The translations under genes and the position numbers were made by a program. Under the pieces are notes generated by a model. That model did no database searches. It was given only the letters and a program-made list of their open reading frames with translations, and was not told where the DNA came from. Positions 34,798-47,167 of a DNA stretch of 53,532 bases are shown here, piece by piece; positions within the stretch are counted from its first letter, which is position 1; every line of letters begins with the position of its first letter. This DNA comes from Candidatus Roizmanbacteria bacterium CG02_land_8_20_14_3_00_36_15 (lineage in GTDB: Bacteria; Patescibacteriota; Microgenomatia; UBA1406; GWC2-37-13). The stretch spans positions 1-53,532 of the forward strand of contig PEUF01000038.1 in NCBI GenBank assembly GCA_002780795.1. Direction: 5' to 3'.

Positions 34798-37005
34798 GTG
34801 GATTCTAAATATCAACCGCTATTAATTGAAGAAAAAATATACCAGTATTGGGAAAAAAACGGATATTTTACTGCTAAAGTTAATAAAGACAAAAAACCCT
34901 TCTCTATTATTCTACCCCCTCCCAATGCCAACGCTGATCTACACATGGGTCACGCGATGTATGTTTATGAAGATATCATGATTCGTTTTCATAAACTAAT
35001 TGGAGATGAGGTATTGTGGTTGCCCGGCGCTGATCACGCTGGAATCGAAACACAGTTCGTTTACGAAAAACACCTGAAAAAACAGGGTAAAAGTCGTTTT
35101 GATTTTGATCGGGAAACACTCTTTAAAGACATATGGAATTTTGTCGAAGACAACCGAGGAAAGATGGAAAAACAATTAAAAAGACTAGGGTTTGCCTTGG
35201 ATTGGTCAAGGCAAAAATACACCATGGATCCTGAAATCATTAAAATAGTTTATGAAACTTTTGAAAAACTTTTTAAGGCAGATTTAGTTTACCGGGCAAA
35301 AAAACTGGTTAACTATTGTACTTATTGTGGTACTTCATTTTCAGATTTGGAAGTCGTTTATAAAGAGAGGGTCGACCCGCTTTATTATATGAAATACGGT
35401 CCGTTTATATTAGCGACGGTGAGACCGGAGACAAAATTCGGCGATACGGCCGTTGCTGTTCATCCCGATGATAAAAGATATCAACAATCGATCGGTAAAG
35501 AGATTGAAGTCGAAGGACTAATCGGTAAATTCAAAGTTAAAGTCGTCGCCGATACAGCAGTTGACCCAAAGTTCGGAACGGGAGTGGTTAAGGTGACACC
35601 GGCGCACGACTTTGATGATTATGAAATTTCTTTACGTCACAATCTTCCAATGAAGCAAGTAATTGATTTTGACGGTCGTTTGAATGAGTTGACAGGAAAA
35701 TATCAGGGGATGCGGGTAAAAGCGGCGCGGGAACAAGTGGCCAACGACCTTAAAAATAAAGGTTGGATAATTAAAGTTCAGGAAGATTATACGCACAGAG
35801 TCGGAACTTGCTATCGTTGTGGTAGAGTTCTTGAACCCTTGCCGAAAGAACAGTGGTTTATTAAGGTCGCGTCTTTAAAAAAGAAAGCCATAACATTGAT
35901 AGAGTCCGGAAAAATTAATATCTATCCGAGTCGGTTTAAAAAAATCCTGACTCAAATTCTTGATAATTTTTATGATTGGAATATCTCCAGACAGATCGTT
36001 TGGGGAATCAGAATACCGGCATACAAATGCAAGTTAAAAGTTCAAAGTGAAAAGTTAAAAGTTGAAGAAAAGTGGTTTGTTTCAATAAAAAAACCTGACA
36101 AATGCCAGATATGTGGAGAGTGTGATTTTAAACAGGATGAAGACACTTTTGACACCTGGTTTTCTTCGGCGCAGTGGCCGTTCGCAACTCTGGCGAGTTG
36201 CTCAAACTCAAAGTTCAAAGTTCAAAGTTCAAAATTAAATAACAATGTAACAATAAAACAATTTAACAATGACTTTTTTAACTACTTTTATCCTACTTCA
36301 GTCATGGAAACAGGTTATGATATTTTCCGAGCCTGGGTTTCTAGAATGATTATGATCGGTTATTTTACTACAAATCAGGTGCCGTTTAAAAATGTGTTTG
36401 GGCACGGAATGGTACGTGATCGGAAGGGGCAGAAGATGAGTAAAAGTAAGGGAAATGTGACTAATCCGATGATGATGGCTGATAGATATGGAGCGGACGC
36501 TTTAAGAATAGCCTTAATTTTTGAGACAAAAGAAGGGGGAGATCTTTCATTTGCCGAAGAAAAAGTCATTGGGATGAGAAATTTTATTAATAAGGTGTGG
36601 AATATTGGCAGGTTCATTTTTATGAACCTGCAAGTTAAAAGTGAAAAGTTAAAAATTAAAAGTTTAAGTGAGAAGTCAAAAGTTTTTCAAAATCTAGAAA
36701 AAGAGTTTAAAGAAGAAAAGAAAGAATATTTTAAATACATGAAAAGTTATCAGTTTTCCAAAGCGCTTGGATTAATTTATGAATTTTTATGGCACCGTTT
36801 TGCCGATTATTATATTGAACAGTTGAAGGATAAAGTAATAAATGGTAACATAGAAGCTTTGGAATTATTAAGAAAAATATATTTTGGAAATTTAAAAATG
36901 TTGCACCCGTTTGCGCCGTTTGTCACCGAAGCAGTATGGCAAGTTTTTAATGGAAAACAAAATAGCATATTAAAAGATTCGGCAACGCAATTTTTTAATT
37001 TTTAA
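34798..37005 (+). CDS. valS: Valyl-tRNA synthetase
   Basis: A 735-aa class Ia synthetase that charges tRNA-Val. Seen are the HIGH-type motif NANADLHMGHAMYV (about 39-52), an editing domain with TVRPETKFGDTAVAVHPDD, zinc-type CTYC and CYRC pairs, the DEDTFDTWFSSAQWPF region and KMSKSKGN. It is about 200 residues shorter than the E. coli enzyme and lacks the C-terminal coiled coil, which is common in CPR. It begins with GTG at 34798; no Shine-Dalgarno sequence is visible. Three separate 7-bp repeat insertions are read in frame, all at surface regions. The 3' end (SATQFFNF) also looks repeat-derived. Confidence 0.93.
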   Translation: MDSKYQPLLIEEKIYQYWEKNGYFTAKVNKDKKPFSIILPPPNANADLHMGHAMYVYEDIMIRFHKLIGDEVLWLPGADHAGIETQFVYEKHLKKQGKSRFDFDRETLFKDIWNFVEDNRGKMEKQLKRLGFALDWSRQKYTMDPEIIKIVYETFEKLFKADLVYRAKKLVNYCTYCGTSFSDLEVVYKERVDPLYYMKYGPFILATVRPETKFGDTAVAVHPDDKRYQQSIGKEIEVEGLIGKFKVKVVADTAVDPKFGTGVVKVTPAHDFDDYEISLRHNLPMKQVIDFDGRLNELTGKYQGMRVKAAREQVANDLKNKGWIIKVQEDYTHRVGTCYRCGRVLEPLPKEQWFIKVASLKKKAITLIESGKINIYPSRFKKILTQILDNFYDWNISRQIVWGIRIPAYKCKLKVQSEKLKVEEKWFVSIKKPDKCQICGECDFKQDEDTFDTWFSSAQWPFATLASCSNSKFKVQSSKLNNNVTIKQFNNDFFNYFYPTSVMETGYDIFRAWVSRMIMIGYFTTNQVPFKNVFGHGMVRDRKGQKMSKSKGNVTNPMMMADRYGADALRIALIFETKEGGDLSFAEEKVIGMRNFINKVWNIGRFIFMNLQVKSEKLKIKSLSEKSKVFQNLEKEFKEEKKEYFKYMKSYQFSKALGLIYEFLWHRFADYYIEQLKDKVINGNIEALELLRKIYFGNLKMLHPFAPFVTEAVWQVFNGKQNSILKDSATQFFNF
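36021..36067 (+). repeat. 7-bp array in valS, first insertion
   Basis: A small GCAT-ACAA-ATGC hairpin is followed by AGTTAAA, AGTTCAA, AGTGAAA, AGTTAAA and AGTTGAA, encoding KLKVQSEKLKVEE. Related enzymes have a short turn at this place between RIPA and the zinc motif. Confidence 0.75.
36184..36270 (+). repeat. Hairpin, 7-bp array and 8-bp array in valS, second insertion
   Basis: Palindrome GCAACTC-TGGC-GAGTTGC (36184-36201), then three AAAGTTC units (about 36210-36231), then TAACAATG, TAACAATA, AAACAATT, TAACAATG (36240-36271), an octamer array. The product is CSNSKFKVQSSKLNNNVTIKQFNND, about 20 residues longer than the family at this place. Confidence 0.8.
36609..36690 (+). repeat. Hairpin plus 7-bp array in valS, third insertion
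   Basis: Palindrome CAGGTTCAT-TTTT-ATGAACCTG (36609-36630) is followed directly by AGTTAAA, AGTGAAA, AGTTAAA, AATTAAA, AGTTTAA and weaker units. It is read as LQVKSEKLKIKSLSEKSK in the anticodon-binding region. Confidence 0.75.
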
Positions 37006-37161: not shown

Positions 37162-37163
37162 TT

Positions 37164-37273
37164 ATAATACGAATGATGCGAATCTGAATGCAAATTATGC
37201 AAATGATACGAATATTAGAAACAGAATTAGCATAATTCGCAGTATTTGCATATTATTCGTAGATTCGTATTAT
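37164..37273. repeat. Gene-less copy of the 9-bp inverted-array element (rpmH-yidC gap)
   Basis: A 110-bp foldback. The left arm is ATAATACGAAT, GATGCGAAT, CTGAATGCAAAT, TATGCAAAT, GATACGAAT; the right arm is its near-complement, ending ATTCGTATTAT. The first 23 bases equal those of the left arm of the GxxExxY element (46674-46696), and the right arm matches that element's right arm at roughly 85 percent. It looks like the same element without its gene. It ends four bases before the yidC ATG. Confidence 0.85.
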
Positions 37274-37277
37274 ATTT

Positions 37278-38147
37278 ATGTTATCACCTAATTTTTTCAA
37301 CACCATTTTTGTTTTTCCGATCCTTAATATATTAGTGGCGTTATATAAGCTGTTATCACTGGTAAAAATTCCTGGATCATTTGGCTTCTCAATCATCGGG
37401 CTGACGGTTTTAATTCGTCTTTTACTTCACCCTTTTTTTAAGCAACAAATGGAAACAGCCAAGAAAATGCAGGAACTAAAACCTCACATTGACAAACTTT
37501 CTAAAAAACACTCCAAAGATCCAAAAAAACTTCAACAAGAGCAACTGAAGCTTTATCAACAGGCAGGGATTAACCCCGCCTCCGGTTGTGTCTTTATGAT
37601 TATCCAAATTCCGGTTTTTTTCGCTTTATATAAAACTTTATCCCTTTTTTTACTTAACAGCAACCTTGTCAAAACGATCACGGAAATTAATCATACTTTA
37701 TATCTTTCTTTATTAAAAATTGAGACAATCAATCCTTGGTTTTTTGGATTTAATCTGGCCTTGGCGCCAAATAAAGCTGCTCAATGGCATTATTATTTAA
37801 TTCCAGTAGTTACCGGAGTCCTGCAATATTGGCAGGCACAGGTATCCATGCCGGCAGCTCCTAAAACCGACTCGGTTGAGGAGCGAAGTCCCGCTGAGCG
37901 GGACGGACGCGGGAAAGCCGAGTCGGTTAAGGATAAAAAAAGCGACGGTGGTGATTTTCAACAAGCAATGAGTATGCAGATGAAGTATATTATGCCGTTG
38001 ATGATCGGTTGGTTTTCTTACACCTTACCATTAGGCCTGTCGCTTTATTGGAACATTTTTTCGATATTTAGTATTATTCAGTATCAGAAGATAAGTCCTA
38101 AATCCAAAGCTCTAAATCCTAAACAATTACAAAATCCAAAATCTTAA
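37278..38147 (+). CDS. yidC: Membrane protein insertase YidC/Oxa1 family
   Basis: This 289-aa protein inserts and folds membrane proteins. It has the five-helix core: PGSFGFSIIGLTVLIRLLLHPFFKQQ with the conserved Arg in the first helix, a charged cytoplasmic hairpin (AKKMQELKPHIDKLSKKHSKDPKKLQQEQLKLY), and ASGCVFMIIQIPVFFALYKTL. There is no large periplasmic domain, as in Gram-positive types. A cytoplasmic loop (about 196-220) is encoded by a nested palindrome, and the C-terminal 17 residues (SPKSKALNPKQLQNPKS) by a 7-bp array. It precedes jag as in many bacteria. Confidence 0.92.
   Translation: MLSPNFFNTIFVFPILNILVALYKLLSLVKIPGSFGFSIIGLTVLIRLLLHPFFKQQMETAKKMQELKPHIDKLSKKHSKDPKKLQQEQLKLYQQAGINPASGCVFMIIQIPVFFALYKTLSLFLLNSNLVKTITEINHTLYLSLLKIETINPWFFGFNLALAPNKAAQWHYYLIPVVTGVLQYWQAQVSMPAAPKTDSVEERSPAERDGRGKAESVKDKKSDGGDFQQAMSMQMKYIMPLMIGWFSYTLPLGLSLYWNIFSIFSIIQYQKISPKSKALNPKQLQNPKS
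37866..37927. repeat. Nested palindromes inside yidC
   Basis: The outer pair is ACCGACTCGG (37866-37875) with CCGAGTCGGT (37918-37927). The inner pair is GTCCCGC-TGA-GCGGGAC (37888-37904). Both are perfect. It is translated as the hydrophilic loop TDSVEERSPAERDGRGKAESV and is much richer in GC than the rest of the gene. Confidence 0.85.
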
Positions 38148-39230: not shown

Positions 39231-39242
39231 ATACAAGTTAAA

Positions 39243-39716
39243 AATTTAAAGTTCAAAGTTAAAAGTTACAATTCAAAGTTTAGAGTTATGCAAACAAACG
39301 AAGATTTTAAACAGCAACTTATAAACAGAACTCTTGATTTAGCAAGAAAGACAATCTCTTTAGTAGATAAGTTTCCTAGTAAAAGATCTGCTTGGGTTAT
39401 AAGTGACCAATTAATAAGAGCTTCGACGAGCATTGGTGCCAATATTATTGAAGCTCAAGCAGCTAGCTCAAGACGTGATTTTATTAATTTCCTTAATCAT
39501 GCTTTAAAAAGTGGAAATGAGACTAAATTTTGGTTTGTGCTTTCAAAAGATCTTAATCAAAAATTAATTAAAGAAGTTGATGTCTTATTGAATGAAACTA
39601 AAGAATTAACAAAAATACTAGGTTCATCTATTATGACTTTAAAAAATAAAAATAAGTATGAGAAAACTTTTAATTTTAAATTGAAATTTTGAATTTTTCA
39701 CTTTGATCTTTGAATT
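39243..39716. mobile_element. Candidate element: four-helix-bundle gene between inverted 7-bp arrays
   Basis: The left array (39234-39287) is made of AGTTNAA-type heptamers; the right array (39668-39720) is the reverse. The best arm pair, 39243-39267 against 39692-39716, matches at 21 of 25 positions. The gene's stop codon and last residues (NFKLKF) lie inside the right array. Gene-less heptamer arrays occur in valS, uppS, ligase and mvk. Intervening sequences of 23S rRNA that encode the same protein family have a comparable ORF-in-hairpin layout (family knowledge). Mobility is inferred. Confidence 0.55.
39288..39692 (+). CDS. Four-helix-bundle protein (S23/Avd-like)
   Basis: A 134-aa protein of the 23S-rRNA intervening-sequence/Avd superfamily. 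Motifs are NRTLDLARKTISLVDKFPSKRSAWVISDQLIRASTSIGANIIEAQAASSRRDFINFLNHALKSGNETKFWF, with the typical RASTSIGANIxEA and the basic helix faces. Relatives are encoded in 23S rRNA intervening sequences and next to diversity-generating retroelements, where they bind nucleic acid. Neither rRNA nor reverse transcriptase is present here. It is framed by inverted 7-bp arrays, which also encode its last residues. Confidence 0.9.
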   Translation: MQTNEDFKQQLINRTLDLARKTISLVDKFPSKRSAWVISDQLIRASTSIGANIIEAQAASSRRDFINFLNHALKSGNETKFWFVLSKDLNQKLIKEVDVLLNETKELTKILGSSIMTLKNKNKYEKTFNFKLKF

Positions 39717-39785
39717 AAAAAGAGCTTCTTGTTTCACTTCTAAAAATCTGGTAGAGTGGATTAATAGAATTATAATTTTGTCAAT

Positions 39786-46673: not shown

Positions 46674-47167
46674 ATAATACGAATGATGCGAATCTGGATG
46701 CGAATGATACGAATTATGCTAATATTTTTTTATGGGAAGAATAATTTATCCCAACCTTTGTTTTAAGATAAACGGAATTCTTTTTAAGACTCATAATCAA
46801 TTAGGAAAATTTTGTAGTGAAAAACAATATTGCGACCTAATAGAAAAATTCCTTAAAGAATCTTCTTTATTATTTGAACGTGAAAAAACTCTGCCACGGA
46901 TATTTAAAGAAGAAAAAGAAGGGAGAAATAAAGTTGATTTCTTCGTAGAGAATAAAGTAATTTTAGAGGCAAAGTCGAAAAAAATAATTACTAAAGATGA
47001 TTACTATCAAGTTAGGAGATACCTGTCGGTGTTAAATAAAAAATTAGGGATCTTGGTAAACTTCCGTTGTACCTATCTTCACCCTAAACGGATTTTAAAT
47101 TCAGAAGCCAATGAGTAATTATTCGCATAATTCGCAGCATTTGCATTCATTCGCGAATTCGTATTAT
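46674..47167. mobile_element. Candidate element: GxxExxY gene between inverted 9-bp arrays
   Basis: The left array (46674-46725) is ATAATACGAAT, GATGCGAAT, CTG, GATGCGAAT, GATACGAAT, TATGCTAAT. The right array (47116-47167) is the reverse, ending GAATTCGTATTAT. The element is 494 bp, and the gene fills nearly all the space between the arms. The right arm contains the TAA stop of the minus-strand gene ending at 47164. A 110-bp version without gene lies at 37164-37273. No target-site duplication could be recognised in the AT-rich flanks. Confidence 0.6.
46732..47118 (+). CDS. GxxExxY protein (PD-(D/E)XK nuclease fold)
   Basis: A 128-aa protein of the GxxExxY family. It has QLGKFCSEKQYCDLIEKFL, in which the family's GxxExxY motif appears as GKFCSEKQY, then RNKVDFFVENKVILEAKSKK (D...ExK, nuclease-like metal site D-Ex-K) and TKDDYYQVRRYLSVLNKKLGILVNFR. 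The predicted fold is PD-(D/E)XK, but activity is unproven. The catalytic residues appear intact. The whole gene sits between inverted 9-bp arrays. There is no Shine-Dalgarno sequence; the ATG follows the left array after a T-run. Confidence 0.9.
   Translation: MGRIIYPNLCFKINGILFKTHNQLGKFCSEKQYCDLIEKFLKESSLLFEREKTLPRIFKEEKEGRNKVDFFVENKVILEAKSKKIITKDDYYQVRRYLSVLNKKLGILVNFRCTYLHPKRILNSEANE

Follow-up and report, generated by a model that had tools for sequence, protein, structure and literature searches.

The window (the whole 53,532-nucleotide stretch of DNA analyzed here) contains a gene-bearing element at positions 46674-47167, a shorter gene-less foldback, and a third element built around a four-helix-bundle gene (39288-39692). 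Their coordinates are listed in Table 1.

Table 1. Positions of the element features found in the window.
Feature	Position	Strand	Remarks
Short gene-less foldback, CGAAT-type family	37164..37273	+	fills the rpmH-yidC gap; covariance-model match 37162-37278, E 3.6e-19
Four-helix-bundle (23S_rRNA_IVP) gene with inverted arrays of a 7-bp unit (AAAGTTC)	39241..39721	+	PF05635 9e-22; arms z 6.0
Left arm of the gene-bearing element	46674..46723	+	CGAAT-type unit array, read inward
GxxExxY gene, PD-(D/E)XK nuclease fold, 128 aa	46732..47118	+	TIGR04256 3e-21, PF13366 1e-21
Right arm of the gene-bearing element, inverted array	47121..47167	-	holds the stop codon of the 47164-47610 gene

The GxxExxY ORF is the sole content between the two arms, as the preliminary description had stated. 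The arms were described there as arrays of a nonamer. They are inverted CGAAT-type arrays, but the spacers are irregular and the nonamers are not strictly tandem. The claim that the right arm supplies a stop codon to the adjoining gene was correct. The arms pair better than shuffled sequences do (z about 13), and the element folds as single-stranded DNA with a z of −4.4. Both this element and the short copy are located between protein-coding genes, outside the rRNA genes. The gene-bearing element lies antisense to its neighbors, a rare arrangement among gene-bearing copies.

A second GxxExxY copy is present in the same genome (locus L002), and its reading frame runs through the right arm into the next gene. 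Read-through of this kind also occurs at loci L117, L074, and L048, and in three of the cases the next gene is prepilin-like (FTLMELL motif).

The short copy was likewise located as first described, between rpmH and yidC, beginning two bases past the rpmH stop codon. It has a folding z of −4.4 and also folds well as RNA. The first 23 bases of its left arm (ATAATACGAATGATGCGAATCTG) are identical to those of the long copy. The left arms of the two copies match at 45 of 53 positions and the right arms at 46 of 54, while the long copy's own arms match each other at 47 of 59. Because same-side arms are more alike across copies than the two arms of the long copy are to each other, the long and short copies descend from one ancestor with a defined orientation. 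No CGAAT-type copies beyond these two were found in the genome of the window (1.06 Mb, 91% complete); the genome-wide counts combine a pattern search and a model search.

The predicted GxxExxY protein exceeds the curated cut-offs of TIGR04256 (75.8 bits, cut-off 35) and PF13366 PDDEXK_3 (77.9 bits, cut-off 22). With the catalytic residues D69, E79, and K81 in place, these matches bear out the PD-(D/E)XK fold assigned to it earlier. In the alignment columns, the same three residues are conserved along with Q93 and Y97 and make up a PD-(D/E)XK core and a Q-x3-Y motif like that of RecB/Cas4-type nucleases. The predicted structure has a pLDDT of 94. Its best Foldseek matches are Cas4 SSO0001, LHK-Exo, AddAB, and lambda exonuclease, with E values of about 0.01-0.02. 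Profile searches gave weak matches alone, including T7 endonuclease I and a junction resolvase (E 0.02). The dN/dS ratio is about 0.14 across 18 pairs with unsaturated synonymous changes. A role as a defense gene was considered and rejected, as PADLOC gave only weak Cas4 or type IIG-like matches. Carriage by phages was also rejected, since GxxExxY had no match in phages. The family is present in 45 of 287 sampled Patescibacteria genomes, with up to nine copies in each.

GxxExxY loci were gathered from these genomes and from near relatives, and the upstream flank of each gene was aligned to the reverse complement of its downstream flank. Arms were counted as present at z > 4. Inverted short-unit arrays flank 83 of the 97 GxxExxY genes in Patescibacteria, compared with six of 57 neighboring control ORFs (p = 5e-21). 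Several of those six adjoin another array or are four-helix-bundle genes. Regular flanking of GxxExxY genes by inverted arrays of a matching unit, a point the preliminary description had raised, is thus seen across the phylum. The six closest relatives that turned up among the GTDB contigs belong to two Roizmanbacteria, a Magasanikbacterium, a Kuenenbacterium, a Doudnabacterium, and an unplaced Patescibacterium. All six have inverted arrays, and their units differ.

The arm units include CGAAT, CTAAT, CAGAT, CTGAT, CGGAT, and ACGAA and have a common directional core, CNRAT. This core occurs 5.8 times per 100 nt on the inward-reading strand and 0.7 times on the other. The best match of a left arm is its own right arm in 52 of the 83 elements, and the right arm ranks among the top three in 75. 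The pairing of the arms stays in register beyond the repeat units. Repeats born of chance or slippage next to an ordinary resident gene arise easily in AT-rich DNA, and four GxxExxY loci (L101, L129, L130, and L140) have no clear arms. Such an origin nevertheless conflicts with the excess over control ORFs, the in-register pairing, and the empty sites described below. It was rejected on the basis of the shuffles, the control ORFs, and the empty sites, and we find it barely credible. The four armless loci encode low-scoring, divergent proteins, and two of them (L130 and L140) look like one subfamily that is perhaps resident and not mobile.

Outside the phylum, six plasmid loci were compared. 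Clear inverted arrays are present in Bacteroides and Bernardetia and weak ones in Treponema; by this test, the other three have none. By eye, the units flanking the plasmid genes of a Fusobacterium and of Persicobacter (L224 and L223) seem to be direct, not inverted. A further pairing of a nuclease with a foldback was seen at three GIY-YIG nuclease genes (L057, L058, and L068), each flanked on its two sides by a different dispersed palindrome (GTCATTCTG...) in inverted copies.

The similarity of arms, measured by k-mers, follows the similarity of the GxxExxY proteins (Mantel r 0.44, p = 5e-4). The mean cosine is about 0.12 at low protein similarity and 0.64 at high protein similarity. Arms within one genome are no more alike (0.145) than arms of different genomes (0.154), which rules out a host-genome signature. 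The arms of GxxExxY and four-helix-bundle genes in the same genome differ (similarity 0.046). These comparisons show that an element's arms move together with its gene. As proof that the protein recognizes its arms, this matching alone falls short, and common descent could explain it.

Several sites are empty or differently occupied in relatives. Between rpmH and yidC lie 116 bp in the window, compared with 1-5 bp in genomes G048, G050, and G041. In G035 this gap holds a foldback of the window's family in the opposite orientation, and in G023 a four-helix-type foldback. The yidC-jag junction is 0-8 bp in seven relatives, contains CGAAT foldbacks in G043 and G051, and contains other foldback types elsewhere. 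The genes on either side of the gene-bearing copy stand 535 bp apart in the window and 20-73 bp apart in eight relatives that retain this gene order. At this site a GxxExxY gene is also present in G041 and G051, and an apparent decayed remnant in G029. The proteins closest to the GxxExxY protein of the window (69-70% identity) are encoded after jag, and those encoded at the same site are 62-63% identical.

Insertions within genes were found in other genomes. Three genera of a different family (G162, G216, and G248; loci L051, L052, and L053) carry a GxxExxY element with translated arms in frame inside lepA. The insertion point falls between 'ITIKLQPVRM' and 'LNLIDTP'; in G216 it is exactly behind the tryptophan of 'RMEW', and two residues are replaced. 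The gene is uninterrupted in ten sister genomes. An element with translated arms is also inserted in frame in recG of a single genome (G297; L056). No protein-splicing (Hint) domain was found in the LepA and RecG fusions, where PF13366 is the sole insert domain. Neither a target duplication nor exact element ends could be defined, as the empty sites come from different species. The preliminary description had counted identical occupation of the loci in all relatives, together with a lack of regular arms at GxxExxY genes, against a mobile unit. Occupation differs among relatives, and the rpmH-yidC gap, the gap of the gene-bearing copy, and the intact lepA genes all provide empty sites. Mobility and the existence of two forms are well supported.

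A homing-type selfish nuclease would cut the unoccupied allele and be copied in by recombination, with the arms serving only as a boundary or as protection. The sharing of the lepA site by three genera, and of the jag and 568-aa-gene sites by several, would suit such a nuclease, but many different sites are used per genome and gene-less copies spread as well. Orthologous sites also hold unrelated or flipped copies, and homing does not require arms to match the protein. This explanation is very improbable. The elements resemble inteins and homing endonuclease genes in placing a nuclease domain in frame in conserved genes, as in lepA and recG of the other genomes, and differ in the lack of a splicing domain, the many different sites, and the gene-less copies.

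A covariance model was built on 26 short copies, and its search placed short copies in 14 of 96 relatives. The richest genomes, which belong to one sister genus, have an estimated 10-20 short copies each; the model matches in five genomes of that genus number 9-32, many being both strands of one palindrome. None of 40 short copies examined lies inside an ORF, and for 56 of 76 ends the nearest ORF end is no more than 10 nt away. The flanking genes are codirectional in 27 cases, divergent in 10, and convergent in one. At three short foldbacks (L298, L299, and L321) the loop contains another repeat, which in two is a GTCATTCC-type palindrome; these are nested insertions. Retention of the stem by compensatory changes is not claimed, since double changes occur in four of 18 pairs and one pair accounts for most of them.

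Seven junctions carry short copies in two sibling species each. Ranked against random pairs, the similarities of the seven same-junction pairs fall at percentiles 4, 81, 0, 45, 87, 0, and 17, where some of the low values involve truncated or nested copies. In five of the seven pairs the copies are flipped, as read from the orientation of the flanks. Because same-junction pairs are no more alike than others and are often flipped, repeated insertion at preferred junctions fits better than simple inheritance.

A nuclease of the window clade, defined by at least 45% identity, is present in nine of the 14 genomes with short foldbacks and in two of the 82 others (p = 8e-8). Counted by genus, it is present in six of seven foldback genera and in two of 61 others (p = 2e-6). 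The short copies are dispersed and tied to this clade, in keeping with the original proposal of a non-autonomous derivative resembling a MITE. Like a MITE, the short copy is short, has inverted termini, carries no gene, and is dispersed. It differs in that no known transposase family stands behind it and in its gene-bearing partner, which encodes the GxxExxY nuclease; no target duplication was found at the empty sites compared, which come from different species.

Five genomes with short copies have no detected cognate nuclease (G006, G010, G035, G046, and G054). These may reflect incomplete assemblies, losses, or other helpers. Another enzyme acting in trans, such as a Y1 transposase of the RAYT kind, or host replication or repair could move the foldbacks, and GxxExxY would then be a passenger or protective. 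The genomes lacking a detected nuclease would agree with this, as would the Y1 transposases in 67 of 145 genomes of the phylum and the five Y1 matches in the genome of the window itself. However, the flanks of Y1 genes carry REP-like palindromes (eight of 26) and not these arrays, the arms are particular to the lineage of the GxxExxY protein and unlike four-helix-bundle arms of the same genome, and the presence of foldbacks tracks the nuclease clade. Ownership of the arms by Y1/RAYT is thereby unsupported, and a separate mover is decidedly unlikely.

Among gene-bearing GxxExxY copies between codirectional neighbors, 69 are sense and four are antisense. The baseline of ORF triples is 64:18, the short copies stand at 14:13, and the four-helix-bundle elements at 35:1. 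Insertion itself would appear to be neutral in orientation, with the gene persisting mostly where a host operon transcribes it. For the window itself this reading of orientation is weaker, because its own copy is antisense.

The preliminary description correctly noted the arms around the GxxExxY gene, but the architecture is broader than it had claimed. Inverted arrays with a unit period of 7 also flank 42 of 50 four-helix-bundle genes across the phylum. We know of no nuclease activity of the four-helix-bundle protein. Proteins of this family are also the products of 23S rRNA intervening sequences (IVSs). In Coxiella, the ends of the IVS form a 28-bp stem, GACAGAT heptamers stand in tandem next to the S23 gene, and RNase III excises the insert (PMC4990558). 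Insertions in CPR rRNA genes are reported to code mostly for LAGLIDADG proteins and to a minor extent for the IVS protein, and GxxExxY is unmentioned there (PMC11270868). The AAAGTTC unit also forms three in-frame tracts in the valyl-tRNA synthetase gene of the window (36028-36065, 36206-36240, and 36628-36690). They read KLKVQSEKLKV and similar, and are possibly solo arms of four-helix-bundle elements in coding sequence.

That the IVS-encoded family shares the architecture is the chief ground for caution about the mechanism, and it makes a common RNA-level or host-factor route a live rival. The arms would pair in the transcript, and RNase III or the encoded protein would cut the stem and free the insert, as in an IVS. 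Insertion into an operon would thereby be harmless and the protein would be an RNA-processing or accessory factor. The Coxiella parallel, the strong sense bias of both gene-bearing types, and the good RNA fold of the window's short copy are consistent with it. Against it, short copies have no sense bias and also occur in divergent gaps, the frame of lepA and recG is kept across both arms so that excision is unnecessary there, covariation is weak, and the nuclease resembles the DNA-type folds of Cas4 and lambda exonuclease. An RNA-level route is, on balance, unlikely.

The reading preferred here is a foldback element of two forms, in which the nuclease works on the arms of its own element and mobilizes both forms. 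We give this a probability of roughly 0.6. The full form consists of two inverted arrays of short directional units around one GxxExxY (PD-(D/E)XK) gene and little else; in the short form, of about 110-125 bp, the arms enclose just a small loop. Insertion of either form is at stop/start junctions, and the full form, in other genomes, also inserts in frame inside genes. The data presented here show this architecture, the dispersal, the empty sites, the matching of arm and protein lineages, and the co-occurrence. Beyond these, the nuclease would recognize the units of its own arms and help both forms to be copied or moved in trans. Short copies would thus need the nuclease in the way that REPINs need RAYTs, and the full form would be retained mostly where host transcription reads its gene in sense. 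The chemistry and the nature of the substrate, which may be an extruded DNA hairpin or RNA, are the least certain parts of the proposal; motifs and fold favor DNA.

Rickettsia palindromic elements are likewise short, dispersed palindromic copies, some of them in frame inside genes. The likeness to REPIN/RAYT systems lies in a small gene of nuclease type with inverted repeats of its own next to it and in dispersed extragenic hairpins that accompany this gene (PMC3116915). Hairpin copies of the gene-flanking repeats were found scattered outside genes here as well. The enzyme is different, being a PD-(D/E)XK protein (matching only PD-(D/E)XK models in Pfam and NCBIfam) and not a Y1 HUH transposase. 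The arms are arrays of 8-11 bp directional units where RAYT genes have single REP palindromes, and the copies adjoin start or stop codons, with the full form able to lie in frame inside genes. Likeness to 23S rRNA IVSs is seen in the length of about 450-500 bp, in terminal inverted repeats that form a stem around one small ORF, and in the short tandem units by the ORF in Coxiella (PMC4990558). The GxxExxY elements differ from IVSs in lying outside rRNA, in encoding the PF13366 nuclease fold and not PF05635, and in their many copies that lack a gene; IVSs are more closely related to the four-helix-bundle elements. The element is grouped with two-form foldbacks of the REP type and is neither a RAYT, an IVS, nor an intein. 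No description of such an element was found in the open literature, the scope of the search.

If the nuclease is the mover, the element is a new class. It is possible, and proposed here tentatively, that this new class of mobile element consists of a stand-alone PD-(D/E)XK nuclease that recognizes its own directional arrays and inserts new copies, both of itself and of gene-less foldbacks, at gene junctions and within coding sequences. On the same tentative reading, a parallel class would be formed by the four-helix-bundle elements, the rRNA IVSs among them. The GxxExxY family is widespread and has had no assigned function; the link to cognate arms suggests a role for it that can be tested. 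If the proposal is true, TIGR04256 gains a function and the long-unexplained IVSs gain a context, and the system would be a REP-like one running on an unrelated enzyme. It would account for a class of foldbacks in compact CPR operons and for the nuclease domains inserted in LepA and RecG. The shared architecture of the four-helix-bundle elements offers a starting point for asking how 23S rRNA intervening sequences arose.
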